Source: Datisca glomerata
Lineage: Eukaryota > Streptophyta > Magnoliopsida > Cucurbitales > Datiscaceae
Direction of reading: 5' to 3'
Length of the DNA: 64,000 nt
Assembly: GCA_003255025.1 (NCBI GenBank)
Contig: QANY01008782.1
Span: forward strand, 686,659 to 750,658
The notes below the pieces were generated by a model. That model ran no database searches and was not told where the DNA came from. It saw only the letters and a program-made list of their open reading frames with translations. Shown piece by piece: positions 9,130 to 51,410 of this stretch (its first letter is position 1; each line of letters begins with the position of its first letter). The position numbers and the translations under genes are program-made.

Positions 9130-9713
9130 AATACCTTTTCTTTCGGTGAAATTTTTATATTCGAGTTACGTCGTTGCTTACAACACCCCATATTATGTCA
9201 TACCTTAGAGCAGTTTCCACACTTCATGATTCTGCCGATCTCATATACTTTGTTCAAGTTTGATCTTTCTCCTTCTTCTCGCCATCTTTTTTGTTTCTTG
9301 GGTCTACCCAGTTTCTTTATATACACCGGAGGTATGATAGATTGCTCGCGGTCCACTGTCACCCACTATTCAGATGATGGAACATGCTTGATTAGGTTCT
9401 CATACGCTTGTTCAAACTCCCCCTTGGTGTAAACCTCGTCGACATATAATTCTAGATCTTCCCTATTTTCATGGATACACGCAATAGCATGACAACAAGG
9501 AATTCCAGATATATCCCAGCCTCTGCATCCACGAGTCCGCTTTTCAAGGTCAACAACGAACCTTGCACAATACATGTGTTCAACCTCCCACAAGTGGTCC
9601 CCAGCCCAATGTGCAATGCATGAAAATGAATCCTTTTTTGTTTGATTCAATTTGGTCACAATTCTAGGATAAATTAACCCATAATATTGTCTAATGTCAT
9701 CTCTCTTCATTTG
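9130..9713 (-). pseudogene. MudrA-type transposase, C-terminal fragment with SWIM finger
   Basis: Starts near MKRDDIRQYYGLIYPRIV at 9710. It contains the SWIM-type zinc-finger segment (CRGWDISGIPCCHAIACI, about 9545-9480) that sits C-terminal to the DDE domain in MULE transposases. The frame then shifts into the usual basic tail (PPVYIKKLGRPKK, about 9340-9300) and a CX2CX4H zinc knuckle interrupted by a stop (CGNCSKV at about 9212). The DDE catalytic core is absent, so it cannot catalyse transposition. It converges with the GRF gene. Confidence 0.75.
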
Positions 9714-10189
9714 AAATCATTTCATCAATAATAAATACAATAATAAATAACCTTTTAGGGCTGTGAAATGGTCATCATGTCTAATAGTGAATAAATACAG
9801 CAATAAACAACTTTCTAGGGCTATAAAATGGACCCCATCTCTAACAGTGACTAAATAGAGTAATAAACAAGCACACAAAAATCTAGGGATGTGAAATGGT
9901 CCACACTAAAGCACAAACATACAAAAGTCTCAAAAGCATAAAAAAAATGCTCCACGCGGTCCTCCATACAGTATAAACAATGTCTCAAAGTATCAAAGAC
10001 TCAAAGTCACGCATAATAAAGCACAAAAAACATCTCATACCTTCGTGAATCAGACCTCCGCAAGCAATCCCTGTGTCGCAAAAAAGCTCTAGATTCAGAG
10101 AAATTTCATGAAGAACAAGAACCTATGCGCGAAGAAGACCTATATCGCTTACGTATTTATGTAAAATGGTCAGAGAAAAGCTTAGGGAT

Positions 10190-18024: not shown

Positions 18025-19796
18025 TATTGGGGGTTATGCCCTCAAAGTATGCATATTGATATTTTGATGTGAAATTTAAAGATGATTATATTTTTCTTAT
18101 AATTATTCTTTTAAATTATTGTTGAATAATTTATATAAATATATGAAAATTCCATATTCATTAATGAGACTATGATATTGTATTAGTACGAGAGAATTAA
18201 GATGATAGATAATGAATAAAATTATCAGCAACATATTAAAATATAGAATTTTTAATGAATGGTTGCTAGTACGGTTGACTAAGCATTATGAACGCGTGAA
18301 ATTAATATACGGATCATTGATGTAGATTGATATCTTAGTGAATGTACTTTATATAATAAGATTATATATGACATGGCCGATGTGAACTAATATATTTATT
18401 AACATGCCGTTTATCATAAAGATTTAATACACATCAATACGGTGATCATATATAGATCAGTCTGAATCTTGAGTAGTCATGAACTCCTATGCATGTCTAC
18501 TGGATCTTTTGATTCACTCGTTAAGGTCTGTTAGTTAATCAGACCAGTGACTTTTATTTTGAAGATTCAATGATGTGGATGACGGGAGACATGAATCTAT
18601 AAAATTTGGAATTTAAGCTTTCCTAACGGATCGTATATTGGTTCCCTTAAGTATAAATTCTAGAACTGAATGGTTATTGAGCTCAAATTTATAATAAAAT
18701 TATAAATTAACTATTCACTAGTGGATTAATGGTACTTAAGGATCAAGAGGTAATTAGAAGGGTAAAATGATAATTTTGACCAGCTCTAATTTACGAACCA
18801 ATAATTGGAGGAGAAAATTACATGAAATGATTATGTCAGTGGACTATATGAGAATACTCTGTAAATACATTTTATAATCTATAAGAATGTAATTCCATGT
18901 TTCTAGTGGAGTAATAATAGAATTAATAAATAAGATTATTTAATTAAAAAGTTTAATTAATAATCTGATTTATTAGAACTTAGGATTATCAGTCCATGGG
19001 TCCCAAGTCACCTCTATACTGCATTGTCTAGGGTGTGAATATTTCTGAACATGAGAAAAAGATTGACTTGCAATTTTTTTATTATGGGAGAAGTACATAA
19101 TTATGTGTGATCAATCAATTAAATTATTTATATATCTAATAATTTTTAGAAATTATATATATAATTATCGATTTTTTTAATTATCGATAAGTGAGACAGA
19201 ATATCTAATTTTTGAAACTAGATAATTAAATTATATTAGATAATAATTTAAATCAACTAAATCTATTATTTATGAAATAACAAATAAGTTAGTTGATAGG
19301 GATAATTAGATATGTTAATTTTGAATTAATTTATATATAGATAATTATCTGATTAAAATAAATATCTAATTCACAATAATTGTCACGTGTCAATCCCTGA
19401 TAGGGTATCAGAAATTGACATGAACTACTGTGGCACTACAGTAGTGAGTGTGCAACACTGCGCTGACTCACGACACACTGTAGTGCCGTGTGGCACTGCA
19501 ATTATGCACAATTACACTGGGTCCCACTGCAATTGATAATTTTACAATTAAATATTTTTTCAGTTTATCTTTAAAAATTCGATATGCCATTATCTAGAAT
19601 ATATACATTTATTATTCTAATAGCTTAGGTTGTTGAAAGAAGAAGAGGGAATAAGTTGATCAGATCATCAGTTGGTCAATCAAGAGTTCAATTGAAAACA
19701 CAATTGATGTCAGAGAGATTTTATTTTGTGATTAAATGTTAATCGAATCTCTGAAAGAATAATCATCACGCTCTTTTAGATCTCATGTGTTGAGAA
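18025..19796 (+). repeat. Copia-1 5' LTR, first part
   Basis: Aligns colinearly with the 3' LTR starting at 35260: the ...GGGTTATGC(C/T)CTCAAAGTATG start, then TACGAGAG, GACCGATGTGA-like and TTGTTGAAAGAAGAAGAG blocks. The flank TAAAT (18020-18024) pairs with TAAAC after the 3' LTR as a 5-bp target duplication. The LTR breaks off at 19796, where viral sequence begins, and resumes at 28992. The total of about 2.2 kb matches the intact 3' LTR. Confidence 0.88.
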
Positions 19797-19831
19797 ATAA
19801 TGAATGAACAGTATTATCCCCACCAGGTTTT

Positions 19832-19843
19832 CCTCTGATACCA
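19832..19843 (-). other. Caulimovirid primer-binding site, copy 1
   Basis: TGGTATCAGAGG on minus is complementary to the 3' end of initiator tRNA-Met, the minus-strand DNA primer of Caulimoviridae. By convention it marks position 1 of the circular genome. Only 35 bp of viral sequence follows before the LTR resumes. Confidence 0.75.
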
Positions 19844-20153
19844 AAATGCGCGGAATTAAACAGTAATTAGAGAAGAGGTATTGGCATGCAAGAAGATAAA
19901 CAGTAAAAGTTGTATTAACAAACAATAATTACAAAAGCTGTATTATAGTGTAAGATTAAAAATTTACACAAACATAGTTTATTGGCAACAATAAATTAGT
20001 GCTCCCGCTCACTAATTCACATTGGAGAAAAAAGAAGAAAAGATTTACAAAAGAGGAGAAGAAGAAGAAGAAAGCTTTGTTTCACAAAACAAGTTTTAGC
20101 TCTCAAATAGTAAGAGTTGTAAAAACGAGTTCTGCTTCACAAATGAGAGATAC

Positions 20154-20163
20154 CTATTTATAG
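20154..20163 (-). promoter_or_regulatory. Probable pregenomic-RNA promoter TATA box, copy 1
   Basis: GCTATAAATAGG on minus lies about 310 bp upstream of the primer-binding site, where caulimovirids carry their pregenomic RNA promoter. The matching segment is deleted in copy 2. Confidence 0.5.
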
Positions 20164-20514
20164 CTAAAGAAAGTGAAGTTCACCGGGAACCCATCACTTT
20201 CCTGAACTATTCTATTCTACAAAAGTAAAAACGTTTTACACTACTTTTGACTAAGAATAGTAAAAAGCATAAATAATTGTCTGATTATTCGACAACCAGT
20301 ATAATGATTATAAAGTGACAAATTACAAGGAATCTTGATAATTGAAATCTTGATCTTCATGTCTGAAAATGATTGAGACTGCCGTTACTTTGATGGAGCC
20401 ACCGTTTTCTTTGATAATTGTTATCTTAGATTTCTATGTCTTCATTGGTTGTGTTGCATTACTTTGTACTATTTGTTGGCATTTTGCCAAGGGAGAAATA
20501 TTCGTGTTTTGATC

Positions 20515-21894
20515 TTATTCATCACTGCTTAAATTGGTACTGTCGAATGGATCTTGTGAGTCCTGAAATGCGTCATGGACCCATTGGGGTAAGACGCGGG
20601 CTTTCAAATTTTGACTGTCTGTCAATTGTTGATGGAGAGTCTTGGATGTTTGGCATTTCTGAAATTTTGGTTTTATTGGGTGATTTGACTCAACTGAAGA
20701 TCTAGAGTCAGAATCGTCATTGTCTTCTAGCAGGAGAAGCAACTTTTGGACCAATTCCTACTTTGATTTAGATTTTGGTTTTGTGGTCTTAGATTTACCC
20801 TTTAAGAAGGGTCGTGATTCCGGTTTTGAATTAGGTCTGGATTCTTTTAATGAATTGGATGATTTTGATTGTGGTTCTGGCCTAGTAGGTTCATTTATTC
20901 TCAATGCAGCCTGGGTAAACGGATTGACCAGCTTCAGGCTAGGGTAATTTTTTGCAAACTCTTGATTGGTGGATGTATTTATTTTTTGGGTATTGAACTA
21001 GTCCCACCATTCCAAATAATACTGTCTGGTGAGAACTTCATTTTCTATTGAGTATTGCCACTTGAGAATCCATGGTAATTTAAATTTATTTATGAAGCAA
21101 AGTAATTGAAGAAAAGAAGCCTCAATTGGTGAGGGTCTATAATATTTTAAAAATAAATCAAAACTCTGCTGTAAATCGATTGGGAGAAGTTCTAAGAGAG
21201 GACCGTGAACGGACCACCACCTTAAGAACCATTTTGAAAAATTAGTTTTAAAATTCTTGTCGAAATTTAAAAACCACGAGTGGGAGAAATTACTGTCTTG
21301 ATGCAGGAAAATTGTATGCGAAGCATCAATGTAGTCAAAATAATTATATTATTTTTATTCAAAAGATTTTTTTTGTCCTGAAGGATGGGCCTTCCACTCC
21401 TCTAATGTGAGAATTTTGAGAATGTAAAAGGAGTGATAGATGATTCTTCTTTCCCCATTCTTGATTGGGCTGATATTTACAGATTTAGTTTCTAAAAGAA
21501 TGTCCCTATAGAAACTGAGATTTTTGTCTCTGTGTCTAGGGATAAAATGAAAATCATGAAGAAAATGTGCTTTTGCTATTTCAGCAGGATTTTTCAGATG
21601 ATTGAATGAGAGTTCAATATGAAAAAGATTCTTACTTGGTTTTTTATGAAGAGGACAAGATTTTCTGTATTTTGTAATTGACTGATTTGCTAATTGAGCA
21701 TCAAAGGGTTAAGAAATTGCAAATGAGTCAAATTGGTTGACTAGGGCTAATTGATAGTTGGGTCTGATGGACCGAAGTACTGTCATTTGGTTAGGAGTAG
21801 AGGACTCCTCTTTAATCTGGGCCTTAAGGGCCAATTGTGGGACTAAAAGTTTCCCTTTAGTTCCGTGCTTTGAAGCATGGGGCCTAGACCCCAT
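20515..21894 (-). pseudogene. Conserved ORF of unknown function downstream of RNase H, copy 1
   Basis: Begins around LALKAQIKEESS (about 21840). After frame changes it continues through a W-rich segment (HSWFLNFDKNF, SKWFLRWWSVHG, about 21280-21195), a hydrophobic stretch (FLQLLCFINKFKLPWI) and a basic SKSK/KPES region. It ends in an acidic tail (DDSDSRSSVE, FDSTNLSSDE) at 20515. Copy 2 keeps only the first half. I do not recognise the family. The W-rich core and charged C-terminus suggest a structural or assembly role, but this is a guess. Confidence 0.55.
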
Positions 21895-21924
21895 CGTGCA
21901 GGAATTGAATTATTAATTCCTTTA

Positions 21925-22560
21925 ATAAATTCAATATCGAATTAAAAAATACTAAGTATGGACTGCCATCTAGCAAAAATCTGTTTGGAGGCTATATTTT
22001 TAACATCATTTTCTAGAACATGCTTAGCAGATTTACAATCAATTTTTAACAAAAAATTATGATTCAACAAGTCATCTTGAAATTTCTATATGCATAATAC
22101 AACAGACAAGATTTCCTTCTTAATTGTACTGTAATTAACTTGTGTTTGAGACCATATTTCAGATGTAAACCTAACAATTTGTTCAGGTGATTCAGGGAAA
22201 TGTTTTTGGAACAAGATACCTCCATATCCAATTTCAGAGACGTCACTTTGACTATTTTAAAAGAATTATTAGTAGGAATGCCAAGACAAGGAAGTGTCTT
22301 AACATGAGCCTTAATTCTTTTGATCAAATCAGTATGGACAACTGTTCATGGCGGAGGATTCTTTTTAAGCCTGTCAAAGAGAGGCTTACAGTCAATTCTC
22401 ATTTTATCGTAAAAGTCAGATATATAATTTAAAGATCCTAGAAATTTTTGCAACTGTGTTTTATCTAGAATTTCATTGGGGAATTCGTCAGCAGATTGTA
22501 TTACTCTATCAATTAACTTGATTATAGAATTGTGTATTTTCAAATCCTAAGAATCTAACC
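21925..22560 (-). pseudogene. Caulimovirid RNase H and RT connection, copy 1
   Basis: 22543-22346 carries the RT thumb/connection (LDKTQLQKFLGSLNYISDF). The RNase H start follows in a shifted frame (DVSEIGYGGILF at about 22245, where DAS is usual). It continues through VNYSTIKKEIL and ends near ARWQSILSIF (about 21950) and a polyprotein end (FIKGINNSIP). At least two frame changes separate the parts. Confidence 0.75.
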
Positions 22561-22599
22561 TTAGATTGAAATAATTTAGTTTTGCTTGCAGAGATGACT

Positions 22600-23130
22600 A
22601 AACCATTTTATTTTATTATCCTAATAAATGATTCAAGATGTCTCCAATGTTGCTCTATTGTTTTTGAGAAAATGAGTACATCATCAATGTAAACAATTGA
22701 GAAATAAGTAAATTAGTTAAAAATTTCATTCATTATCTTTTGAAATTCACTAGGAACATTTTTAAGACCAAAAGACATTACATTCCGCTCATAATGGTCA
22801 AATAGAGTTACAAATGCTGTTTTATATTTATCACTTTCATTTATCTGAATTTGCCAAAATTCAGATTTCATATCAAATTTAGAAAATATCACTACATCTC
22901 CAAGTCTATTTATTATATCTCTTTTGTTTGGTATTGGATATCTTATCCATTCCAAAACATTATTACGGGGCTTATAATTTATTACTAAACGAGAAACTCC
23001 TCGTTCAATTTCACTGGCCTTCTGGACATAAAAGGCCGAGCAGGACCAAGAAGATTTGCTCCTTCTAATGATATTCTTATTGAGAAGTTCTGTAACTTCC
23101 TTTTTACAAAACTCAGCATTTCAGAATTCA
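22600..23130 (-). pseudogene. Caulimovirid reverse transcriptase, copy 1
   Basis: Shows KKEVTELLNKNIIRRSKSSW, SRLVINYKP, KRDIINRLGD, FSKFDMKSEFWQIQ and MSFGLKNVPSEFQKIM. The catalytic motif YIDD is at 22691-22680. This order is that of the Caulimoviridae/Metaviridae RT. Several stops interrupt it, for example after IMNEIFN, but the catalytic aspartates are still encoded. Confidence 0.85.
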
Positions 23131-23328
23131 TCTGAATATGACTTGCCTTTGTTGGGATATTCTTTTAATCAAATCCCTTAATATAAGGAACACTAACAAT
23201 ATGTTGCTTTCTGTGCGAGAAAGCAATGAGAATATCAGAACATAATTCTTTATAAATTTTTTGTTCAAATATTTTAATTTTATTTTGAAGAATAGGACTC
23301 TGAGGATGTTCTTCAATTCTATTGAATT

Positions 23329-23790
23329 TTAATTCATTTTGTAAAAAACACAATTGTTTTTCTTTACAAAAATGAGATTTATTGAATTAGAAATGGATTT
23401 TTCTTTTAGAGTTTTTAATTTTTCATTATGAGGAAAAGAAAGAAATTTAAATTTTATAGGTTTATTCATGACATAGGTAATTATTCCATCATACTCTGTT
23501 GAAAACGGATATAACAGAGCAATGAATGGTAAACCTATGATAATTTTTTCAGTCATATTTTTTACAAGACAAATGATATTTTGAGACATACATTGCTTGG
23601 CCAATATAGACTGTACGTATTTCATAATTGATGTGCATACGGGTACCATCACCAGAAGACATAGACTCTTTTGTCTTCTTAAAGTACTTGGTTGGAACTA
23701 GTCCTTATTACGTACAATTCAAATCTGCTCCTGAATCCACAAGAGCCATTGTTGTGAAATAAAATTCTTGAATAATTATTCTGACTATTA
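23329..23790 (-). pseudogene. Caulimovirid aspartic protease region, copy 1
   Basis: TMALVDSGADLNC, with the DSGA catalytic motif at 23737-23723, is followed by a stop (about 23711). A linker then runs from 23652 to 23329 (IGLPFIALLYPFSTEYDGI). Retroviral-type proteases of this fold dimerise to process the polyprotein. Copy 2 reads DSEV at the same place. Confidence 0.7.
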
Positions 23791-23859
23791 TGTGTCATTT
23801 TTTTTGTTTTGACGTGATTAAATATTTGGAAGAAATGTCCATTGTCTTGACAGTTAATA

Positions 23860-24178
23860 GATTCTTCAACCTCATTATTAGAAAATAATAATTTACTTGG
23901 TTCACTAAATTCTTATTTGCTGATTAGGTTCTCTATTTTTAAAAGATTTAATTCTTCTTTTATTTTAGTGTTTGAATTCCGCAAGTCTTTTATTTCAATT
24001 TTAATATCTTTAATTTCCTTTTAAAGTTCCTGTAAGGTAACTTCATTTTCATTCCTTTTTACCATATTGAATTTTTCAAGAGTTTGTGAAAGACTTGCAG
24101 TATTATTGTTATTAGATTTTAAATTTTTTTTTCTTTAGAATTACTTTTTTAAGTTTTTCAAGGTATTCTTGTTTTAAA
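23860..24178 (-). pseudogene. Coiled-coil-like linker before the protease, copy 1 start
   Basis: SLSQTLEKFNMVKRN, VTLQEL and heptad-like K/E/L-rich residues on minus match 25755-25990 of copy 2. The homology stops near 24178, which is the head-to-head junction with copy 2. Confidence 0.6.
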
Positions 24179-24179
24179 A

Positions 24180-25485
24180 AGATTGATAAAATGATTCATG
24201 AATTAAAAAAGAAATCTATTGAATCGTCTTCCTCTGTTAATGTTGTCAACCAAGACAATAGTTCAAAATTTAAAACTAAGTCTGAAAAGATTGGTGAAAT
24301 AATTTAAGAATTGAAAGTAATTAACCAAAATGATAATTCAGATTCAGATAACCATAGGTCAGAATCGATCTATGAATCATCTACAATAAGTCAATTTTCA
24401 AATATTAACAATATTGAAAAGAAATTTAAAAATTTAAAAATTAATAAGTTAGAAAGGAAATGGCATAAGAAACCCATGCCTCCTGATATTCAAATTACTG
24501 AATCTTCTATTGTTAATCAATTTTCTGTATCTGCAGAAAAATTATATGAATAAAATATTGATGGTCTTTCTTAACAAGAAGCCCTCAATAAATTACAACA
24601 CATGGCAATGGTAGTTAACAACTACATTACCTCTCATAATTTACTTCATGAATAAGTAATAAATCTTCTAGTTATAGGATTCACATGAATGCTCCATTCC
24701 TGGTGGAAAAAACATCTCATTGAAAAATCTAAAATTGCCATTCTTTCAGTAGTAAAGATTGATGCTGAAGGATACCCAATTATGGGAGAAAAGCAGAAAA
24801 TAATACCTGATGGAATAAATGCACTCCTTTATACAATAATTGAAAATTTCATTGGTATGCGAAATGATATTACTTCGCGTATTCATGATCAATTAACAAA
24901 TCTTAGGTGTTCAACCTTAAGTGATTTTAATTGCCATAAGAATATATTCTTATCGAGAGTAATGTCAAGGGACGATAGTAATCAACCCTTTTGGAAGGAA
25001 AAATTCATTAATGGATTAACCAATCTCTTTGAGCATAAAATAACGACAGTCCTTAGTAATAACCTAGGAAATATAGACTATGATTGTCAAACCTATAGAA
25101 CAATAAGTACTATAATACAAAAAAAGAATTAAAAATATGTGTTGATATGAAAATCAACAAACAAATTAAAATAGAAAGCAAAACTGCTAAATATGAGTTA
25201 TGTAATTTTTGTGAGCAATACGGTTTACCCTCTATTGACCATTCTCAGAAAAATAGGAAAAAATCTCACTTAAAAACCCTAGAAGGTCTCACAGGTCTTA
25301 TAGAAAAAACTACCACAAATATAAGAATAAAAGTTTTGACCAAAACTTTTCTAAGAATAAAAATTTCTCTAGGAATAAAAATTATTCTAGAAAAAGGTTT
25401 AATAAAAAATTTGATGAAAGCAATATTACATGTTTTAAATGTGGTTAGAAATGTCATCTTTCTAACACTTGTCAAGTTAAAATAA
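24180..25485 (+). pseudogene. Caulimovirid capsid protein, copy 2
   Basis: An acidic/Ser-rich N-terminal part (24311-24553) is followed by the capsid core at 24689-25129 (MLHSWWKKHLIEKSKIAI, FWKEKFINGLTNLFEHKI) and a basic K/R-rich stretch. A CCHC zinc knuckle CX2CX4HX4C follows at 25431-25472 with a TAG stop inside it. This arrangement (acidic, core, basic, single CCHC) is diagnostic of Caulimoviridae capsids. No upstream movement protein is present; copy 2 begins truncated at about 24180. Confidence 0.75.
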
Positions 25486-26090
25486 AATTAATCAATTAAA
25501 AATTTCTGAAGAAGATAAACATGGATTATTTAGAATCTTAGAAACAATAGATTATTATGAAAATGACAATAAAGATTTAGGAGAATATGAAACTCCTGAA
25601 TCCTCTGACACTAAATTCTCAAGTTCTGACAGTGATTCTCCTAACATCACTATAGGGTGTAGGGATAGTTGTTGTAAAAAAGTTAATGTCTTAAATAAAA
25701 ATGAAGAACAAGAAACAATCTTGTTAGATTAAATTTGTAAAATTGAAAATTCAGAATTAAAACAAGAATACATTGAAAGACTTAAAAAGATAATTCTGAA
25801 GAAAGAAAATACTAAGTCTAATAATAATACCGCAAGTCTTTCACAAACCCTTGAAAAATTCAATAGGGTAAAAGAGAAAGAAAAGGAAGTTACCTTACAG
25901 GAACTTCAAAAGTAAATTAAAGATATTAAAATTGAAATAAAAGATTTGAAGAATTCAAACACTGAAATAAAAGAAGAATTAAATCTTTTAAAAATAAAAA
26001 ATTTAATTAATAAACAAGAATTTAGTGAACCCAGTAAATTACTAATTTCTGATAATGAGGTTGCAGAACCTATTAACTGTCAAGACGATT
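25486..26090 (+). pseudogene. Post-capsid acidic and coiled-coil linker, copy 2
   Basis: An acidic segment (ETPESSDTKFSSSDSDSPN, about 25590-25650) and K/E/L-rich heptad-like sequence containing ASLSQTLEKFNR match the copy 1 linker. Several in-frame stops. Confidence 0.5.
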
Positions 26091-26159
26091 AACATTTCAT
26101 CCAAATACTTAATCACATCAAAATAAAAAAATAGCACATAATGATCAGAATAATTATTT

Positions 26160-26590
26160 AAGATTTTGATTTCACAACAATGACTCTTGTGGATTCAGAA
26201 GTAGATTTGATTGTATACAGGAATGACTAGTCTCTCCGAAGTACTTCAAGAAGACGAAAGAGTCTTTTTCTTCTACAAATCGTACCCAAATGCATATTAA
26301 TTATGAAATCCCCAAAGTTCATATTTTTCCAGATAATGTATATTTTAAAACATTATTTTTCTTAATAAAAAATATGACAGATAAAAATAATTTTGGGCTT
26401 ACCATTCATTTATTTGTTATATATTTTCACAACAGAGTATGAATGGATAATACTTATCCAATGGAAGAACCTGTCAAATTCAAAACATATTTATATTTTC
26501 AAATCCATAAATACAATCTCTTGTAAAGAGAAACAATTGGGGGTTTTACAAGAAAAAATAAAACTGGAAAAAATTGAAGCACAACTTTAG
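26160..26590 (+). pseudogene. Caulimovirid protease region, copy 2 (active site changed)
   Basis: FTTMTLVDSEVDLIVYR (26170-26220) aligns with the copy 1 protease, but the DSGA motif reads DSEV. The downstream linker (MGLPFIYLLYIFTTEYEW) matches copy 1. Confidence 0.6.
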
Positions 26591-27040
26591 AAGCTTGATC
26601 TTCATGTTCAAATTAAAATTTTTAAACAAGGAATTCATCGTCTAGTGATTAATTATAAGCCTTTTAACAATATTGTAGGATTGATAAAATATTCAATACT
26701 AAACAAAAGAGACTTAATCAACAGACTTAGAAATGCTGATATATCCTCTAAGTTTACCATAGAAACCGGATGTTGGCAAAACTAGACAAATAAGATCGAG
26801 AAATACAAGATTATATTTTATCATTATAATTGAAAAAATAATGCCGTTTGATCTTAGATTTGCTCCAAGTAAAATTCAGAATATAATAATAGAATTCTTT
26901 AATCAATTTGCTGATTTCTCGATTGTCTGAATTAATAACATTCTTATTAAAGAATAGTGGTTAAGTTTCTTGATTGTTTACAATTGTAAATGTGTTAAAT
27001 AATACTGGAACTATTTTAAATTATTTACCAGAATAATAAA
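26591..27040 (+). pseudogene. Caulimovirid reverse transcriptase, copy 2 (catalytic site lost)
   Basis: HRLVINYKPFNNIVGLIKYS, NKRDLINRL, SSKFTIE and an FFNQFADFSIV stretch follow the copy 1 order. The YIDD site has become stop-INN (26928-26939). Part of the palm is deleted or scrambled. Confidence 0.7.
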
Positions 27041-27370
27041 ACAAAATATTTTAGTTATCTCTGCAAATAGAACCAAACTATTTCAGAATAGATTTCCAAG
27101 ACTTGAAATTTATTATTTCATTAATCAAATCATGCCATTTGCTTTGATTAAAAAATGTCTTTTAAAAATTAATTGCAAGTCTGCAAAATGTATTTCGAAT
27201 GGAAACATATTACTTCCACACAAATTCTTCCCAAGTAGCAGCCTATTTTTAGTACTTTTAATTTCAATGTCCAATTTATTAATAATCCAAATCCTGACCT
27301 TCTTTCTTATAATTTATGCATGGAATCATTTTAAGATTCTACAATGGATGAATTTGAGAATTCTGGCCAA
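27041..27370 (+). pseudogene. RT thumb/RNase H remnant, copy 2
   Basis: A SANRTKLFQ-like segment (27060) jumps directly to INCKSAKCISNGN (27165) and a shifted frame (KWQPIFSTF). The central part of RNase H, including its D/E/D residues, is deleted. Confidence 0.6.
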
Positions 27371-27434
27371 CTAGAATACTAAAAGGTAGAACTTAGAATA
27401 CTCAATCAAAATTTTTTTAAAATCAAGAAGCTCA

Positions 27435-27850
27435 ATGGCAAAGCAGCCGCTTTTTGTTCAAAATCCCTATTTAAATTATGGTCATAATGGATCTGAATAT
27501 CCAAGAAATGACTGGATTAATGAATTGGATAAACTTTTAGATTATGTTGGATTGAAGGATGACTTCAATGCATCATTAATTCATTGGTATGAAAAAGGTG
27601 GAAAATAGGATTTCACAAAGATAATGAAATCTTTTATGATAACAGTAAAATTTTAACCGTAAACCTTTTGGGACAAGCAATATTTAAAATTGAATTTTCA
27701 AATAAATCAATAGAAGAATTTCCGATTCCGAAAGGAACTTTCTTCATCACGCCTAACAGATTTCAAAAGAGTAATATGCATGTAGTAGAATCCTTAACTG
27801 AAAGAATCAGTATTACTTTCAGAAATCATGTGAGAATGATGAATGGTTAA
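27435..27850 (+). pseudogene. AlkB-like 2-oxoglutarate/Fe(II) dioxygenase domain within the viral copy
   Basis: The first ORF starts MAKQPLFVQNPYL (ATG 27435) and stops at 27606 after NASLIHWYEKGGK. A one-base frame slip continues with IGFHKDNEIFYD. The HxD metal-binding pair is H 27614-27616 and D 27620-27622. SKILTVNLLGQAIFKIEF follows, then the distal His in SNMHVVES (27779-27781) and RISITFR, the Rx5R that binds 2-oxoglutarate (Arg codons 27803 and 27821). HxD...H...Rx5R with ILTVNL is the pattern of AlkB domains, best known in plants from Alphaflexiviridae and Betaflexiviridae. Known members demethylate alkylated or methylated RNA/DNA. The domain lies between RNase H and the conserved unknown ORF, and copy 1 lacks it. 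Confidence 0.72.
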
Positions 27851-27869
27851 ATAATAAAAGAGTCTTTGA

Positions 27870-28450
27870 CTGAACAATTGGCCCTTAAGGCCTAAATCAA
27901 AGAGGACTCTTCGTCTTGTAACCAAACCCAATCAACAACACTTAGGTGCAACAAACTCAATGACCAATCAACCCTGATAAACCAATTTGACCCATTCCCA
28001 ATATCCTTTGATGCCTAATCAATCTCAAAATACAAGAAGTCATCATTTGATTTTCAAAAAAAGGTCAATGAAAATCTCTTTCATATTGAGCCTCCATTTA
28101 CTCATTTGAATGATCCTACTCAAATTGCCGAAGCCCATTTCATTTCTAAATTCCACTATGTTCCTGGACATAATAAAAAAACCTTAGTTTCTATAGAGAC
28201 ACTCTCTTAGAAACAGAATCTATAAAAATTAGCCCAATCATAAATTCTGAGGAAAGAATCATTTACCATTATTTCTCTATCCTTAGAATCATAACTGTGG
28301 AAGATTGGAGAATCCATCCTTCAAGTTTCAAAATAATTTAAAATAAAAAATAATATAATTATTTTTGACTATATTGATGCATGACACAATATTTTCTTGC
28401 ATCAAAATAGTGATTTCTTTCACTTTTGGTTTTTAAATTTTGATAACACT
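27870..28450 (+). pseudogene. Conserved unknown ORF, truncated, copy 2
   Basis: LALKA, LINQFDPFPIS, FHIEPPFTHLNDPTQIAEAH and HFWFLNFDNTF...FLKWWSIHG match copy 1 (21840-21195) block by block. After WWSIHG the sequence jumps to the leader, losing the second half of the ORF and the TATA region. Confidence 0.6.
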
Positions 28451-28782
28451 TTCGATCCAAGTTGGTTCTTAAAATGGTGGTCCATTCATGGTTTTACCTT
28501 AAAACTCATTTTACAACTCTTACTATTTGAAAGCTAAAACCTGTTTTGTGAAACAAAGCATTCTTCTTCTACTCCTATTTTGTAAATCTTTTCTTTTTTC
28601 TTCAACATAAATTAGTGAGCGGGAGCACTAATTTGTTGTTGCTGATAAACTTGTTTGTGTAAGTATTTAATTTTACACCAAAATACAATCTTTGTAACTA
28701 CTGTTTGTTAATGCAATTTTTACTATTTATCTTCTCTCATCTTAATACCCCATCTCTAATTACTGTTTAATTTCGTGCCTTT

Positions 28783-28991
28783 TGGTAGCAGAGCCAAAAC
28801 CTGATGGGGTTAATACTATTTATTCACTATTTCTACTTCAAATATCTGCATAATTAACCTGGCTGGTTATTGATATTATTGTTTACTTATTTACTTATAT
28901 TAATAATTACTTATATCTAATCTCACTCTTCAGTCACTTGGGCGGATATTGATTTACAAACTGGCTGGTTATTGATTTACAAACTTAAATT
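28783..28991 (+). other. Caulimovirid primer-binding site and post-PBS leader, copy 2
   Basis: TGGTAGCAGAGC at 28783-28794 is a one-mismatch tRNA-Met PBS, followed by CAAAACCTGATGGGG as in copy 1. The remaining 180 bp are AT-rich and contain a repeated CTGGCTGGTTATTGAT motif (about 28858 and about 28963). The LTR resumes at 28992. Confidence 0.7.
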
Positions 28992-29417
28992 GTCTCACTA
29001 AAGTCCTTCTTAATAAATCTCTAGATCTAATGTGTTGAGAACATCTAGAGACAGAAAAATGTCTTGTAATATTCTACGTGTCCACACACGTCCTAGTGCG
29101 TTGAGGATTGACTTGAAAGATTTTGGTGTGGATTTCGGAGTCTACTGATCGTTTGGAGGATCAATTAATTTTTGCAATGACACTTGATATAGAATACAAA
29201 ATATATATGATTCCTAACCTTTAATGTTGTAAATTTAACTTATAACCATATAATGAATCATGACTCATTGAAAAATGACTTTCAATAATTTTTTTATTTA
29301 GTTTCGTGGCGTTGCGCAAGTTTTGTTTCATTAAAAGATTCATTTTTATTAAAAGTTTATTTTTAAAAGGCAACGCGCCTCCACGCTTCCGCCACGCACG
29401 CGCTGCGACGACCAACA
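28992..29417 (+). repeat. Copia-1 5' LTR, second part
   Basis: Matches 37008-37432 of the 3' LTR (TCTCACTAAAGTCCTTC, GTTCTAGTGCGTTGAGGATTG-like, CCTCCACGCTTCCGCC) and ends CGACGACCAACA. It overlaps the first LTR part: the AGATCT(C/A)ATGTGTTGAGAA segment is present on both sides of the viral block. Confidence 0.88.
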
Positions 29418-31368: not shown

Positions 31369-32215
31369 ATGTCTATCATGGGTAACCCTGTTGATCTTTT
31401 ACTCGCTCTTGAGAAATTGGATGGTGATAATTTCATACGTTAAAAATCAAATATGAACTTAATGCTGATTTGTGAGAACTGTAAGTTCATTCTTACTGAG
31501 GAATGTCCTGAGGAGCCCGCTGTTAACCCCTCTAAGAATGTTAGGGACAAATATGATGATTGGATCATATCAAACAACAAGGTGAAATGCCATGCTTGTG
31601 AGCATGAATGATGTTCTGAGAACCAAGCATGAAAGCATGGAGGCTGTCTATGAGATTTTAGAATCTTTACAGGTAATGTTTGGGCAACAGTCTGATCAAA
31701 GTCGTCATCAGGCCACTAGGAGCTATATGACAACTAAGATGAGGAAGGGTACTTCTGTTCGAGAACATGTTTTGAACATGATTAACATAATGCACAAGGC
31801 AAAAGTACACGGGGCGACCATTGATGAACGGACTCAAATTAGCATCATAGTAGAGTCGCTCACACCAGCTTTTTCTACGTTCATGACCAATTATGTGATG
31901 AACAAGTTGAAATTCAACATGACCTACTTGTTGAATGAACTGCAAACTTTTGAGTCACTCAACCTTAGAATGACCAAATAGGGCGAGACAAATATTGTGG
32001 AGAAAAATACTTCTTCCAATATTGTTAAGAACAAGAAAAAGAAGAAGAACAATGGTAAGGACAAGAGTAAGAATAAAAGAGTAAAGAAAGCCAAGACATC
32101 GCTGAAAGCCAACAAGAAAGACAGTAAGCCCAAAGGAAAATGCTTTCACCTTGGGGTTGAAGGTCATTGGAAGAGAAACTATAACAAGTATCTCTATGAG
32201 TTGAACATGAAAATT
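31369..32215 (+). pseudogene. Copia-1 gag
   Basis: Starts MSIMGNPVDLLLALEKLDGD, then WKSN-like with a stop, and KFILTEECPEEPAV. A frame shift follows near 31590, then the UBN2-type gag core (VYEILESLQVMFG, RKGTSVREHVLNMINIM). A Lys-rich region and a zinc knuckle that has lost two cysteines (CFHLGVEGHWKRNYNK, about 32140-32190) complete it. Gag would form the virus-like particle. Confidence 0.85.
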
Positions 32216-35200
32216 AAATATGATTTACTTGTACTTGAAGTTTGTTTAGTGGAATATGATTTGTTATCCTGGATACTTGATTTAGGAGCCAATAGCCATG
32301 TATGTTCTTCTTTACAGCTACTTGATTCGTCAAGGGAGCTGGCTGATGGCGAGGTCGTTTTGAGAGTTGACAGTGGTGCGCTTGTGTCAGGTAAAGCATT
32401 AGGGACAATCTGTTTACTTTTTGAATATAATTACTTAGTTTTGAACGATATTTATTATATTTCTAATTTTTCAAGGAATTTCTTTCATTTTTGCAAGAAT
32501 AGTTATTCGAAGTTTCTTTCATTAAAAAAAGAGTTTATTATTTCTAAGAATGGATTTGATATCTGTCATGCTAAAATTATAAATGGACTGTATCTGCTTA
32601 AACTGACTAAACGCACGTTAAATAATTCTGAATTATTTAAAATGGCAAAACTTAAAAATAACAAACGACAAAGAGTTTTTCATGATGATAACATATATTT
32701 ATGACATCATAGGTTGAGACATATTAATCTAGATAGGTTAAATAGGTAAACAAAGAATGATGCTTTGAGAGAGCTAAAAGTTAGAACTCTTCCTGTTTGT
32801 GAATCTCATTTAGAGGATAAAATGACCAAGAAACCTTTCACAAGAAAGAGCCAAGGTACTACTTGAGTTGGTACATAGTGATGTGTGTAGACCAGTCAAT
32901 GTACAATCTAGAGGTGGGTATGAGTATTTTGTCACTTTCATTAACGACTACTCAAGGTATGTTTATAGTTACCTACTGCATTGAAAGTCTGAAACTTTTG
33001 GAAATTTTAAAGACTTCAAGGCTGTAGCTAAAAAACATTTGGGTAAATCATTGAAAACTCTTCGATCCGATCGAGGTGGTGAATACTTTAATTTAGAATT
33101 CAAGGATTATTTGCTAGAGTTTGAAATCCTATCCCAATTTACAGCACCTGAAACACCACAGCAAAATGATGTTGCAGAGAGGAGAAACCAAACCTTATTG
33201 TATATGCTTACGTCGATGTTAAGCTAGTCATAATTGTCACTTACATTTTGGGGATATGCACTACACACGACAACTTACATTTTAAATGTGGTGCCCTCTA
33301 AGTCTGTATGCAAGACGCCTTTAGAGTTATGGAATGGCTCCAAACCTAGTTTACATCATTTCCGTATATGGGGGTGTCCAACTCACATTTTTAGACCGAA
33401 GATCGGAAAGTTAGTCTCAAGGTCTGAGGTATGCATATTCGTTGGCTATTCTCTAAAGACTAGATGTGAGTACTTTTATAGCCATAATGATCAGAATGTG
33501 TTTGTGTCAATAAATGCAACCTTTTTTTAGCATGACTATATGCTAAACTACAAACCTCGTAGCAAAAGTAGTTCTCGAGGAATTATCGACTGATGAGATC
33601 AGACCATCTTCAATTTCTACTAATAAACGATAGACCAGAGAAACCATAGTTCCTGCAAAGGAAACCTCGATACAACGTCGTAGTGGGAGGGTTGTGAGAA
33701 AACTGGTTTGCTACGAACTAGATGCACATGTCCTAGTGTCAGACACTAATAAAGATGATCCATTATCTTATGAAGAAGCAAGGATGATCCTGAAATGGAG
33801 AAATGACAAGATGCCATGAACTAGGAAATGAAATCTATGTATTCCAAATCCATCTAGAAACTTGAAGATCCGCCTAAAGATGCCAGTCCCATTGGATGTA
33901 AATGGATCTTCAAGAAGAAAAGAAGTATATATGGGAAAGTAGAGACTTTAAAGGCAAGGTTAATGGTCAAGATCTATACATAAAGAGATGGAGTCGATTA
34001 TGAAGAGACATTCTCCCATGTGGCCATGCTAAAATTCATTCGCATCATTTTGTCCATAGCCACTAGTTTTGACTATGAGATATGGAAAATGGACGTCAAG
34101 ACAACTTTTCTGAATGAGTCTTTTGAAGAAAGCATCTATATGATGCAACCAGAAGAGTTCGTACAAAATGGGAAGATAAAAAAATATTCAAGTTGCTTAA
34201 ATCTATTTATGGATTAAAGCAAACATTTAGATATTGGAATCTTACATTTGATGAGAATATAGAGTGTTATGGATTTGAGCAAAATGTTGACGAAGCATGT
34301 GTTTATAAATACACCAAAGATAAGATAATGGTTTTCTTAGTTTTTTATGTTGATGATATTCAAGTCATTGGGAATGATGTAGAAACTTTGTCAAAAGTAA
34401 AGAAGAAGTTAGCTGAGAAATTTTAAATGAAAGATTTGGGAGATGCAAGCTATGTTCTAAGCATCCAAATCCTAAGGGATAGAAAGAAAAAGTTCTTGAC
34501 ACTTTCTCAGGCATCTTATGTTGATAAGGTACTAGAGAGATTCTCTATAGAGAATTTCAAGAAAGGTCAACAACCGACTAGAAATGGAATTGTCTTCTTC
34601 AAGGAACAATGTCCTAAGACACATCATAAGGAAGAGGATATGAGAAAGGTTTCCCATGCTTCAACAGTTGGAAGTCTTATATATACCATGTTGTGTACGA
34701 GACCAGACATCTGTTATGCAATGGAGTTTGTCAGTCGTTATCTATCGAATCCATGTTTGGAACACTGGATTGTAGTAAAGCACATTCTCAAGTATCTTAA
34801 GAGAATGAGAAACTATATGCTTGTTTATTCAGGTGGAGACCTCAACCCTACTGGATATACTGATTCTGATTTTCAATCAAACAGAGACAGTCGAAAGTCG
34901 ACATATGGATCAGTATTCACCTTAGATGGAGGAGCTGTAGTCTAGAGTAGTATTAAACAATATAGCATAGCAGATTCCACTACGGAAGTCGAATATGTAG
35001 CGGCTTGTGAAGCTGTGAAAGAGGCGGTAGCAAATTCCAAGGAACCGAGGAGTCCTAAGAGGGGCAAGCATACAAAGAGAAAATATCATCTTGTAAGGGA
35101 GATCGTGCATCGATGTGATGCGACTATTATGAAGATAGCATCGGAATAGAACCCGACTGATCCTTGCACAAAGTCCCTTCCTGCGAAGTCACTTGAGGGT

Positions 35201-35259: not shown

Positions 35260-37432
35260 TGTTGAGGGTTATGCTCTCAAAGTATGTGTATTGGCATTTT
35301 GATATGAAATTTAAAAAGGATTATATTTTTCTTATAATCGTTATTTTAAATTATTGTTAAATAATTTATATAAATATCCGAAAATTTCATATTCATTAAT
35401 GGGACTATGATCTTGTATTGGTACGAGAGGAATAAGATCATAGATAATGAATAAAATTGTTAGCAATATATTAAAGTATAAAATCTTTAATGCATGGTTG
35501 CGAGTATGGTTCACTAAACATTATGAATGCGTGTGATTTAGATCTGGATCATTGATAAAGATAGACATTTTAGTGAATGTACTTTATATAATAAGATTAT
35601 ATATAACATGACCGATGTGAGTTAATATCTTTATTAACGTGCCATTTATCATAAAGGTTTAATACACATCAATTCGATGATCATATGTAGATAAGTGTGA
35701 ATCCTGAGTAGTCATGAACTCCTATGCATGTCTACTGGATCATTTGATTCACTCGTTAAGGTTTGTTTATTAATCAGGCTAATGACTTTTATTTTGGAGA
35801 TTCAGTCATGTGGATGGCAGTGGACATGATCTTACAAAGTTTGGAATCTAAGCTTTTCTAATGGATCGTATATTGGTTCCCTTAAGTATTAATTCTAGAA
35901 CTGAATGATTATTGAACTCAAATTTATAATATTATAAATTAGCCATTCACTAGTAGATTAATGGTACTTAATGATCAATAGGTAATTAGAAGGGTAAAAT
36001 GATAATTTTGACCAGTTTTAATCTACGAACAAATAATTGGAGGACAAAACTGCACGAAATGATTATGTCAGTGGACTACATGAGAACACTCTGTAAATAC
36101 ATTCTATAATATTTAATAGTGAAATTTCATATTTATAGTGGAGTAATAATGAAATTAATAAATAAGATTATTTAATTAATAATCTAGTTTATTGGAGCTT
36201 AAGATTATAGGTCTGTGGTCTCCAAGTCATCTCTATACTACGCTATCTAGGGTGTGAATATTTGAGGACATGAGAAAATGACTGACTTACCATTGTTTTT
36301 TTATTTTTGGGCAAGTACATAATTATGATTCAATTATGTGTGATTAATTAATTAATAATTAATTAGTTGAATTATTTATATATTTAAATATAACTTTCAA
36401 ATATATATATATATAATTATCAGTTTTTTTAATTATCGATAAGTGAGACATAATATTTTATTTATGAAATTAGATAATTAAATTATTATTAGGTAATAAT
36501 TTAAATCAACTAAATTTGTTATTTATGAAATAACTTATGAGTAAATTGATAGGGATAATCAGGTATGTTAATTTTGAATTAACTGATATCTAGTTAATTA
36601 TTTAATTAAAATAAATATTTAATCCACAGTAATTGCTACGCGTCAATCACTAATAAGGTATCAGATGTTGACATAGACCATTGTGGTTCCATGTGGCACT
36701 ACAGTAGTGTGTGTGCAACACTGTAGTGCACAGTTGCAGTGGGTGTCACTGCGATTGGTAATTTTATAATTAAATATTATTTCAATTTATCCCTAAAAAT
36801 CTAATACACCGTTATATAAGAATGTATACATATATTTTTCTAATGGCCTAGGTTGTTGAAAGAAGAAGAGAGAACCAGTTGATTAGATCATCAGTTGGTC
36901 TATCAAAAGTTGAATTGAGAACGTGATTGGTGTCGGAGGGATTTTCTTATGTGATTAAACGTTAATCAAATCACTAAAAGAATAATCATCATGTTCTTTT
37001 AGAGAATCGTCTCACTAAAGTCCTTCAGTAAATCTCTAGATCTCATGTGTTGAGAACATCTAGAGATAGAAAAAGTGTCTTGTAATATTTTACGTGCTCA
37101 TACACGTTCTAGTGCATTGAGGATTGACTTGGAAGATCTTGAAGACTACTAATCGTTGAAATGATTTTGTGGGAACGGATGATCGATCAATTTTTGTAAG
37201 GACACTTGATATAGACTACAAGAGGTATATGATTCCTAACATTGTATGTTGTAGATTTAACTTATAAATATATAATGGATCTTGACTGATTGAAAAAGAT
37301 TTTTCAATAAAAATTTTAATTTGGTAATTGTGGCATTGCACAAGTTTTGTTTTATAAAAAGGTTCATTTTCATTAAAAGTTTAATTTTTTAAAAGGTCAC
37401 GTGCCTCCACGCTTCCGCCGTGACGACCAGCA
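35260..37432 (+). repeat. Copia-1 3' LTR (2173 bp)
   Basis: Starts TGTTGAGGGTTATGC and ends CGACGACCAGCA. It is followed by TAAAC, which pairs with TAAAT before the 5' LTR. It contains a cluster of short palindromes around CACTACAGTAGTG (about 36690-36745) shared with the other LTR copies. Confidence 0.9.
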
Positions 37433-44958: not shown

Positions 44959-46827
44959 TGTTGGAAAACGGAACGCTCGCTCGACGGAGGCGTGGTGGCT
45001 TTTAAAAATTTATTAAAAATGAATCTTTTTCAATGAAAGAAAATAAGCGCGAACGCAACTGTTTCCACAATAAAAATTTTGTTGAAAACTATTTTCAATC
45101 AGGATTCATTATATATTTATACATTAAATCTAAGACATACATGGATAGAAATCATATACCACTTGTAATCTATATTAAGCATCATCGCATACCAACGATC
45201 ATGCGTTCCCACGAACAACAGATTTCGAGATCCACACCAAGACCTCCCTAGTCAATCCTCAAACGCACTAGGACGTGTGTGGGCACGTAAAATAATCAAA
45301 GACACATTTTCTGTCTCTAAATGTACTCAACACATGAGATCTAGAGATTTATTGAGAATGATTAATTTTTGTGAGACAATCCTTTGAGAGAATATGATGA
45401 TAATTCTTTCAGAGCTTTTTTTATTAACTTTTTAATCACAGAGAAAATTCACCCTGATAGCAATTATGTGCAAAAATTATAGTGAGTCCCACTGCAATGG
45501 AAATTTTGAAATTAAATTTTATTTTCAGTTTATCTCTAAAAATATGATATGTCATTATCTAGAAAATATATAGATATCATTCTATTGGCACGACACTGCA
45601 GTTGCCGTGAGTTATTACAGTGCCTCACGACATTGTGTGCCACTACACTATCGTAGTGTCGTGTGTCACTACAATATTTCACCCCCACTACTACAGTGCC
45701 ACGTGGCACTATAGTAGTTCATGTCACTCTCTGATTCCTAATCAGTGATTGACACATGAAAATTATTGCGTAAATATTTATTTTAATCAGATAAATATAT
45801 AGATATCAGTTAATTCAAAATTAACATATATGATCATTCCTATCAACTAACTTATCCGTTAGTTCACAAATAACAGATTTAATTGATTCAAATTATTATC
45901 TAATAATAATTTATAATTATCTAATTTTCACAATATAGATATTCTGTCTGACTTATCGATAATTAAAAAATTAATCGATAAAATTATTTATATGTAATTT
46001 CCGAAATTTAAATATAAATAATTTAATTATTTAATTTTTAATTAATTAATCACACATAATTATCATTTACTTACGTACTTGTCCTAGAATAAAAATTCAT
46101 TTTGCAAGTTAGTCATATTTTCATGTTCTGAAATATTCACACCCTAAACTGAGTAGCACAGAGGTCACTTGGAGACCATGGACCAATAATCTTAAGCTCT
46201 AATAAACTAAATTATTAATTAAACTCTTTATTTAAATAATCTTATTTATTAATTCAATTATTACTCTACTATAAATATAAAATTACATTGTTAGAGATTA
46301 TATAATGTATTTATAGAGTAATCTCGTGTACTCCATTGATATAATCATTTTATATAGTTTTGTCCTCTAACTATTGATTCATAAATTAGAGCTCGTCAAA
46401 ATTATCATTTTACCTTTATAATTATCTCTTGATCATTAACTACCATTAATTCACTAGTGAATAGCTAATTTATAATCTTATTATAAATATGAGCTCAATA
46501 ACCGTTCAGTTTCAGAATTAACACTTAAGGGAATCAATATATGATTTCTAGGAAAACTTGGATTCCAAATCTTGTAAGATTATGTTCCCAGTCATCCATA
46601 TCACTGAATCTCCAAAATAAAAGTCATTAGCTTGTTTTACAAATGAACCTTAACGAGTGAATCAAAAGATCCAGTAGACATGTATAGGAGTTCATGACTA
46701 CTCAAGATTCAGGCTGATCTTCCTATGATCATCAGATTGATGTGTATGAATTTTTTTATGATAAACGGTACGTTAATGAACATATTAATTCACATCGGTC
46801 ATGTCATATATAATATTATTATATAAA
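44959..46827 (-). repeat. Copia-1-family LTR fragment (minus)
   Basis: Reverse-orientation homologue of the Copia-1 LTR. TGTTGG at 44959 is its 3' end. TCTAGAGATTTATTGA, CACTGCAGTTGCCG, CATGTATAGGAGTTCATGAC and GACCGATGTGAA (on minus) match in order. The first 350 bp or so of the LTR are missing where the CACTA element begins at 46828. No internal Copia sequence adjoins it. Confidence 0.8.
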
Positions 46828-49238: not shown

Positions 49239-51410
49239 ATTGCCATTCAGAAAAACAGTCTTGACGTCCATATGCCAGATTTCATAATCGAGGGCAGCAG
49301 CAATGGATAGGTGGATCGAATGGATTTAGGCATGGCTACCGACGAGAACGTATCCTCATAGTCTATACATTCCTTTTGGGTGTAGCCATTGGCTACAAGC
49401 CTAGCTTTGAATGTCTCTACATTTCCATTCAGACTTCTCTTTTTCTTATACATCCATTTACACCCTACTGGTTTTACACCTTCAAGAGGATCTACAAGTT
49501 TCCAAACTCCATTCGAGTACATTGATTGTATATCAACGTTCATGGCTTCTTGCTATAGATTTGCTTTAGGACTGGCCATGGCCTGTGAGCATGAGACATG
49601 TTCATCATGATCATTATGTGATTTAGGACTACTGTTAAGGCATCTCCGTAAGACATGTACCTATCAGGCTGTCTCACAACCCTCCCACTACGTCCAGGCT
49701 CCATAGGCTCTCGCCCCAGCTGTGGTTCTTCCATTATTGAATCAAAAATAGTTCTTGATTGGGGGTTCAATGTCCTCCAACTCAATAATTCCTCTAGTAT
49801 AAGAGTGCTTCTCAGTTTCAAACTTCTTACATAGTCTTCTTCCAAAAAATGAGCATTCGTGCTAACGAATGTTTTCTTGTCAGTTGGATTATAAAAGACA
49901 CATCCCTTCGTTCCTTTGGGATATCTCACAAACATGCATAATTCTGATCGACTAACCAACTTTCCTGTCTTCTGTTTCAGAACATGTGCTTGACACCCCC
50001 ATATTGTAAAGTGGTTGATGGATGACTTTCGTCCATTCCATCTTTCATATGACGTGCCAGGCACCATCTTTGACGGAACATAATTCTGAATGTATACTAC
50101 TGTTTCCAAGGCATATCCGCAGAATGAATCTAGGAGGAATAAATAACTCATCATTGATCTAACCATATCCATCAGAGTTTGATTTCTTCTCTCTAACACA
50201 CCATTTTGTTCTAGAGTGCTAGGTGTTGTAAAATGACACAGAATACATTATTTCTTAAGAAAGTCTTCAAACTCTTTTAGCAAGTGCTCTCCACCACGAT
50301 CAGATCGTAGTGTTTTAATTTATTTCTCTAATTTATTCTCAACCATACTCTTATACTCTTTGAACTTTATAAAGGTTTCAGACTTTTGGTGCATTAGATA
50401 AACATGTGCAAAACGTGAGTAATCATCAGAAGTTTACAAAGTATTCATAACCTCCTTTTGCTTGGATATTTAATGGCGCACATACATCACTATGTGCGAG
50501 TTCAAGGTATTGAGTGGCTCTTTCACCCTTCGCTGAAAAGGATCTCTTTGTCATTTTGCCTTCTATGCAGGATTTATATTTGGGTAGTGATCCCACACTT
50601 AAAGTTGGCAATGGACCATCATATGCAAGTCTTTTAATCCTGTCCAGGCTAACATGGCCAATATATAAGTTGCCACAAATATGTTAGATCGATTGAGTCA
50701 GACTTCAACATTTTACTATCCCTTTGTGAAGCGACATTCATTTCATTGGAACATATTATTGGCACTATTGGTTTTACATAAAACAATTTATTTATCAAAT
50801 GTGTTGTAGTGATCAAGCAGTCATTTCTAAAAATACCAATATCTTTATCAATGAAATTCAAATTGAATACTTTCTCAATTAAACTAGCTATTGAAATAAG
50901 GTTCTTCCTAAAAATCAGGATACAACAAACATCACGTAAAACCATAAAACTATTATCAAATGACAATTTAATAGTTCTCATAGATACAACCGATATTTTT
51001 TGCTCCATTTCTTTAATAGAAGCTGAACTCGCCCTCGTCAAGCTTCTAATTTCAAGTCGGCTTTTTAGCTTTCTTCAGACCTTTCTTATGTTTCCTTTTG
51101 GCGCCAGAGGTGGAAGGCTTACTTTCAGTAAAGTTTGCATCTCCAGTGTTCTTCTTGCCCTTCAGAAATAGGGTCTCAGCAGCTTACCGTTCCTTTATCA
51201 GCTCAGGAAGTGAGTACCTCAACTTATTCATCGAATAGTTAAGTTTGAAGTTTTTAAAAGTGTCAGGCAGAGTCTCAAGGATCATATCAAATTGTGTCTC
51301 ACTATCTACCTCAGCACCTATGATCTCCATCTCATTCAGATAACTATTGATAAGCATCATATTTTCTCTACCATGAGTTCCAAGTTTCATCTTGCAGTTC
51401 ATGAAGTTTT
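49239..51410 (-). pseudogene. Copia-2: 3' part of gag, pre-integrase, integrase, RT start
   Basis: Read from 51402: gag core (GAEVDSETQFDMILETLP, MNKLRYSLPELI) and a Lys-rich tail. The zinc knuckle and protease are deleted near 51045. A pre-integrase block follows (KNLISIASLIEK, IFRNDCLITTTHL, 51041-50649), then integrase (CAPLNIQAKGGYEYFVNF, ERRNQTLMDMVRSMMS, WGCQAHVLKQKTGKLV) and the start of the RT ([30 protein letters not shown]), ending at the DVKT.FLNG motif near 49240. The remaining RT and RNase H are missing. Confidence 0.85.

Follow-up and report, generated by a model that had tools for sequence, protein, structure and literature searches.

A broken AlkB-type oxygenase core, likely a viral accessory gene, in an endogenous caulimovirid of Datisca glomerata

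Introduction

AlkB-type oxygenases dependent on 2-oxoglutarate (2OG) and Fe(II) are known from plant RNA viruses, namely the Alpha-/Betaflexiviridae, Closteroviridae, Potyviridae and Black raspberry necrosis virus, whose domains have in common with the sequence considered here the HxD motif, the distal His and the RxxxxxR motif (PMC11784248, PMC544882; these and the other publications cited enter this article in excerpts). The conserved AlkB set consists of HxD, the distal His and the two Arg of RxxxxxR; the last Arg is regarded as likely AlkB-specific in the same paper, which also gives the roles of these residues (PMC544882). The sequence in question lies within 64,000 nucleotides of the Datisca glomerata genome (contig QANY01008782.1, positions 686,659 to 750,658 of the forward strand), hereafter “the window”, in which an earlier note, made from the letters alone, had proposed an AlkB domain in the second of two endogenous copies of a caulimovirid.

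No caulimovirid appears among the 47 AlkB-bearing viruses of Table 2 in a 2024 review (PMC11784248), and the open-licence literature on AlkB, Caulimoviridae and endogenous pararetroviruses, represented mostly by titles and abstracts, yielded no description of an AlkB in a caulimovirid. Likewise, the excerpts of four works on endogenous caulimovirids (PMC4241990, PMC10377300, PMC9794742, PMC13308828) mention open reading frames (ORFs) of unknown function and no AlkB ORF. The nearest precedent is the ALKBH5-like ORF2 of Ty3/gypsy elements of Phalaenopsis, which, as in the present case, is an AlkB-type extra ORF placed apart from the polyprotein in a plant reverse-transcribing element (PMC9289625).

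The analysis reported below indicates that the Datisca window almost certainly holds a genuine AlkB-type core, at a site for which no AlkB was found described, and that this core is likely a viral accessory gene surviving on one broken copy.

The AlkB-type catalytic core

The main evidence comes from a profile built on 33 aligned phage and metagenome AlkBs, selected from the homologues of one phage AlkB (120 listed of 463); the solved chains matched by this profile, 33 distinct ones, are all AlkB, ALKBH1, ALKBH2 or ALKBH3. When the 1005 stop-to-stop ORFs of at least 30 amino acids present in the six frames of the window were ranked with it, an 85-amino-acid frame of the second viral copy, hereafter “the core”, came first with E 4.3e-6, the runner-up having E 3.8, and hhalign of the core against the same profile gave a probability of 89.9 and E 1.7e-6. 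Furthermore, PF03171 (2OG-FeII_Oxy) matched the core with E 2.8e-5 and 24.8 bits, above its cut-off of 23, and PHROG 21963 (“alkylated DNA repair”) matched core residues 2-80 with E 0.0028, whereas none of the 8 + 9 other window frames put through the same Pfam scans gave a 2OG family match. On the other hand, PF13532, which the earlier note had named for checking its claim, remained below its cut-off of 31.2 (E 0.068, 13.8 bits) and speaks against a match to this family profile. NCBIfam gave no match to the core, and the sole solved chain matched by sequence was an unrelated one (E 1.2).

The motifs HKD, ILTVNL (starting at 27650), distal His and RISITFR were found exactly where they had been claimed and in the AlkB order, and residues H8, D10, H63, R71 and R77 of the core are invariant among 34 aligned sequences, i.e., the core and the 33 AlkBs. 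The motif pattern occurs a single time on both strands of the window. Among 1000 dinucleotide-shuffled versions of the region 24000-29000, 3 contained it (sense frames), bearing in mind that the pattern was written after the hit had been seen.

Structure prediction is less discriminating. Modelled alone, the core attained a predicted local distance difference test score (pLDDT) of 55.6, with 72 viral and 20 PDB structure matches at E <=10 and none at <=0.001; modelled together with 33 AlkB rows it attained a pLDDT of 76.3 and 1372 PDB matches, again none at E <=0.001. The top matches of the latter model are a mixture of AlkBs and cupins, a repeat look giving the same result; as a candidate jelly-roll it is compatible with either, and because the chosen rows favour the AlkB fold this model does not constitute independent evidence. 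That the core owes its resemblance to chance, or is another 2OG oxygenase or a cupin, is nonetheless very improbable, in view of its first rank with a profile that finds only solved AlkB, ALKBH1, ALKBH2 and ALKBH3, and of the presence of the last Arg, likely AlkB-specific according to the excerpted paper (PMC544882). As judged from the profiles and motifs, the frame is almost certainly an AlkB-type core.

Position and organization of the block

Two degenerate caulimovirid copies lie head to head at 19.8-28.8 kb of the window (Table 1). Their alignment shows a gap, in which an unaligned stretch of 592 bases in copy 2 (27283 to 27873), approximately the length of one small ORF, stands against ~85 bases in copy 1. 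The core resides in this stretch, its neighbours being the RNase H tail on one side and the conserved downstream ORF, called ORF2, on the other. Profiles and aligned flanks together uphold the proposal that an endogenous caulimovirid contains, after RNase H and before the downstream ORF, the core of an AlkB-type 2OG oxygenase. The likening of this arrangement to the AlkB of flexivirus replicases was, instead, not borne out, because the block is flanked by the RNase H tail and ORF2 and not by replicase domains such as the methyltransferase and helicase between which the replicase AlkB is embedded. Neither a replicase domain nor a host exon was recognised beside the block in the frames searched against Pfam.

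The block is interrupted. Its front frame, with an ATG at 27435, is ended by a stop at 27606-27608, and the motif-bearing frame, open from 27593, overlaps it in a different frame, which confirms the slip at 27606 previously described as breaking copy 2. The former attribution of the entire block (27435..27850) to AlkB is to be restricted: it is valid for the core frame and not for the 57-amino-acid front piece, in which no similarity to AlkB could be detected. Profile matches identify the catalytic half as AlkB-type, whereas the front half, which matches nothing, is assigned by position only. In a segment test the best place of the front piece ranked 8 of 1005 and was not at the position that an AlkB requires; an NCBIfam match of the front piece (17.3 bits vs a cut-off of 180) was rejected as due to chance. 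Open-frame length was rejected as coding evidence, 85 open codons being found in 258 of 1000 shuffles.

Table 1. Features of the window, grouped as AlkB block, viral copies and other elements (positions in window coordinates)
Feature	Position	Strand	Evidence or remark
Front half of block, 57 aa, ATG to codon before stop	27435..27605	+	AlkB assignment by position only
AlkB-type catalytic core (predicted), 85 aa	27593..27847	+	profile matches; stop 27848-27850
HxD (HKD), predicted iron ligands	27614..27622	+	invariant in 34-sequence alignment
Distal His, predicted third iron ligand	27779..27781	+	invariant in 34-sequence alignment
RxxxxxR (RISITFR), predicted 2-oxoglutarate and substrate contacts	27803..27823	+	both Arg (codons 27803-27805 and 27821-27823) invariant in 34 sequences
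RNase H tail, copy 2, upstream viral neighbour	27144..27331	+	aligned to copy 1 until 27282, beyond by eye to stop at 27332
ORF2 remnant, copy 2 (conserved downstream ORF)	27866..28506	+	two halves, 72.5 and 73.6% identical in DNA to copy 1
Coat-protein-like frame, copy 2	24689..25129	+	PF22909 Caulimovir_coat_dom 5.2e-4, 20.8 bits, cut-off 27 not reached
tRNA-Met primer-site-like sequence, copy 2	28783..28795	+	1 mismatch
Copy 1 (related caulimovirid, without AlkB block)	19793..24177	-	alignment of copies
tRNA-Met primer-site-like sequence, copy 1	19831-19843	-	2 mismatches
Copy 1 junction: RNase H reading ends, short unmatched stretch, then ORF2	21838..21923	-	
RVT_1 in copy 1	22716-23120	within copy 1	Pfam E 8.7e-12
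WD40 frame	152-3196	-	PF00400 9.4e-9
SWIM zinc-finger frame	9369-9716	-	PF04434 6.6e-5
Copia-type retrotransposon frames	31586-32701 and 49543-50247		

The core shares the reading frame of ORF2, whose similarity to copy 1 begins at ~27866, and no clear ORF2 start codon is seen in copy 2, two circumstances that would suit a core forming no separate gene but the N-terminal domain of the ORF2 protein, or else the end of the polyprotein. This possibility is nevertheless improbable, since the stop at 27848-27850 intervenes, the front piece is read in a different frame and the ORF2 frame of copy 1 has a separate ATG at its start.

The carrier element

The identification of the carrier as a caulimovirid rests on the RVT_1 match, the plant relatives of its reverse transcriptase (RT), the sub-threshold coat match and the primer-site-like sequences, and is to this extent a prediction. 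The RT piece of copy 1 gave 525 candidates in the protein collection, 522 of which are relatives; the named ones, among the 120 of these 522 that were listed, are from plants (Prunus, Punica, Cajanus, Acer, Nicotiana). Sequences resembling a tRNA-Met primer site number 4 in the window vs 0.74 expected, and those of copies 1 and 2 align with each other; copy 2 is on the plus strand and its final aligned base is 28834. No movement protein or integrase turned up in the frames scanned at 20-29 kb, where no dedicated search was made. In the viral contigs, the RT piece of copy 1 gave 5 stretches and its ORF2 piece 17, none of which was confirmed, and the ORF2 pieces tested were without a Pfam match.

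The two copies (25757-28834 on the plus strand vs 19793-24177 on the minus strand) constitute a mosaic, with 87% identity before the RT (397/454) and again in the 3′ noncoding stretch up to the primer site (283/325), and 67-74% identity in the protease linker, RT, RNase H tail and ORF2. This mosaic is reminiscent of the noncoding regions common to partner pararetroviruses in grasses (PMC5491270, in excerpt). Relative to copy 1, copy 2 is missing ~440 bases of the RNase H region (27086-27143) and ~1060 bases of ORF2 (28506-28509); it may represent a defective or component-type genome, or may have decayed after integration. Twelve inverted arm pairs are present at 19.8-28.8 kb (e.g., 24125-24177 / 25757-25809), and the head-to-head inverted arrangement is a possible source of double-stranded RNA.

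As to the remainder of the window, the SWIM zinc-finger frame belongs to a type that we take to be often a remnant of Mutator-like element (MULE) transposases, and a repeat of ~400 bases, non-viral by position, is found in three copies (28988-29393, 37005-37419 and 44986-45380), with 75-81% identity to the first.

The junction of copy 1

Copy 1 had been described as lacking the block while keeping both neighbours. The block is indeed absent and parts of both neighbours are kept, but the end of RNase H has been removed as well: the copy 1 reading arrives at “...INNSIP” and then passes into unmatched sequence, whereas copy 2 continues with “...NPDLLSYNL...”. Presumably, the conserved tail that the RNase H family consensus leads one to expect after that Pro is missing from copy 1. 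Elsewhere in the window the unmatched stretch at the junction finds only matches of 10-12 bases. Since part of RNase H is cut off at the junction too, a clean insertion does not account for the difference between the copies, and the proposed gain or loss of the domain between related viruses is not sustained; the lack of AlkB in copy 1 may be due to a local deletion.

Origin of the block

If the core is AlkB-type, does it belong to the virus that carries it? The alignment of both flanks to copy 1, the length of about one ORF provided with ATG and stop, and the failure to recognise a replicase or an exon favour a viral gene, and the core is probably a gene of the caulimovirid. The fuller proposition, that the block is a broken AlkB-type 2OG/Fe(II) core, likely the accessory gene of an undescribed caulimovirid, with demethylation of the RNA of this virus as its predicted role, is somewhat less secure, though on the evidence of the sequence we lean towards it.

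Several observations weigh against a viral accessory gene. The block is known from a single, frame-broken copy. The 57-amino-acid front piece has neither a Pfam match nor an hhalign match to the AlkB profile. Copy 1, because its RNase H end is also lost, offers no clean evidence of gain or loss, and base composition does not distinguish viral from host DNA (0.29-0.32 vs 0.32 for the window). Finally, relatives of the core are lacking: no candidate sharing three exact words was found in the protein collection, although the same collection yielded 525 for the copy 1 RT piece, and neither the 15 pattern-matching stretches of the viral contigs nor the 50 stretches of the prokaryote contigs were confirmed. 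The empty result in the protein collection perhaps reflects divergence, because the search requires exact shared words, and the silence of the viral contigs says little, because a general RT motif also occurs 0 times there, so that this set may hold no such virus. Comparison with phages returned 11 records with weak E values throughout (3 to 8); the record with the best coverage is an annotated AlkB with 23.6% identity and E 8. The one match of a degenerate AlkB pattern was to a 77-amino-acid frame devoid of HxD and was attributed to chance. Thus, as far as the earlier note presented AlkB as a regular gene of a virus, a single copy with no relative in the protein, viral or prokaryote collections does not bear it out.

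The same singularity, i.e., one copy with no relative in the protein collection, is what would be left by a stray AlkB piece, derived from an endogenised RNA virus or a host ALKBH transcript and inserted after integration, that was never a caulimovirid gene. Pieces of RNA viruses are indeed endogenous in plant genomes, a cucumber case having been mapped on an AlkB-bearing replicase (PMC3136472, in excerpt), and the Datisca locus is rearranged, with its copies head to head. Yet the block amounts to approximately one ORF, is situated where one ORF gives way to the next, begins with an ATG, ends with a stop and shares the frame of ORF2, and neither a replicase nor an exon was recognised on its flanks. 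A stray insertion, which is the main rival of the viral gene, is therefore unlikely, albeit far less so than the alternatives considered above.

Proposed function and its implications

The viral RNA is the predicted target of the enzyme. If the gene was functional, the enzyme would have been made from the polycistronic viral RNA, either on its own as a small protein or as the front part of the ORF2 protein, and in the presence of Fe(II), O2 and 2-oxoglutarate it would oxidise N-methyl groups on bases, releasing them as formaldehyde. The likely target would be the pregenomic RNA, a product of the host polymerase II that is later both translated and reverse-transcribed. With N6-methyladenosine (m6A) removed, the pregenomic RNA could escape m6A readers and the decay that they drive. 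Lesions such as 1-methyladenosine (m1A) and 3-methylcytosine (m3C) stop reverse transcription, and removal of m1A or m3C could clear lesions that block the reverse transcriptase. A viral copy would then have been integrated into the host chromosome, where it decayed.

Taken in its entirety, this scenario envisages a lineage of plant DNA viruses with reverse transcription, so far represented by this one fossil, that captured an AlkB demethylase as an accessory gene downstream of RNase H and with it freed its pregenomic RNA of methyl marks or lesions. The enzyme would be the first eraser in Caulimoviridae and a parallel to those of plant RNA viruses and of the orchid retrotransposon; we give this scenario an even chance of being correct. 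If true, RNA methylation would also weigh on DNA-genome viruses that replicate through one long RNA, and whether m6A or RT-stopping lesions limit pararetroviruses would become testable.

Comparison with known systems

Among bacterial and phage AlkBs, gp229 of the Caulobacter phage CcrColossus resembles the core, with 26% identity over its length and motifs in register; it differs in that the domain is there full-length, ~200 amino acids, whereas here the core is preceded by a short unrecognised front piece. The florendoviruses and other endogenous caulimovirids resemble the carrier in having a tRNA-Met primer site and, downstream of the polyprotein genes, an ORF whose function is unknown, and differ from it in that their descriptions, as excerpted, contain no AlkB ORF (PMC4241990, PMC10377300, PMC9794742, PMC13308828). 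From the AlkBs of plant RNA viruses the block is set apart by location: these are found in the replicase, or in P1 in the case of potyviruses, whereas the block lies between RNase H and ORF2 (PMC11784248, PMC544882).

The Phalaenopsis ORF differs in belonging to a retrotransposon, where it is intact, is found in several subfamilies and encodes an m6A demethylase active in vitro (PMC9289625), whereas the Datisca block belongs to a caulimovirid, exists as one broken copy and has a predicted activity. If the reading as a viral gene is true, the caulimovirid would represent a further kind of plant element having the same enzyme, beside the RNA viruses and the Ty3/gypsy family; the orchid ORF shows that a demethylase can be retained in active form by a plant element that replicates through reverse transcription (PMC9289625).
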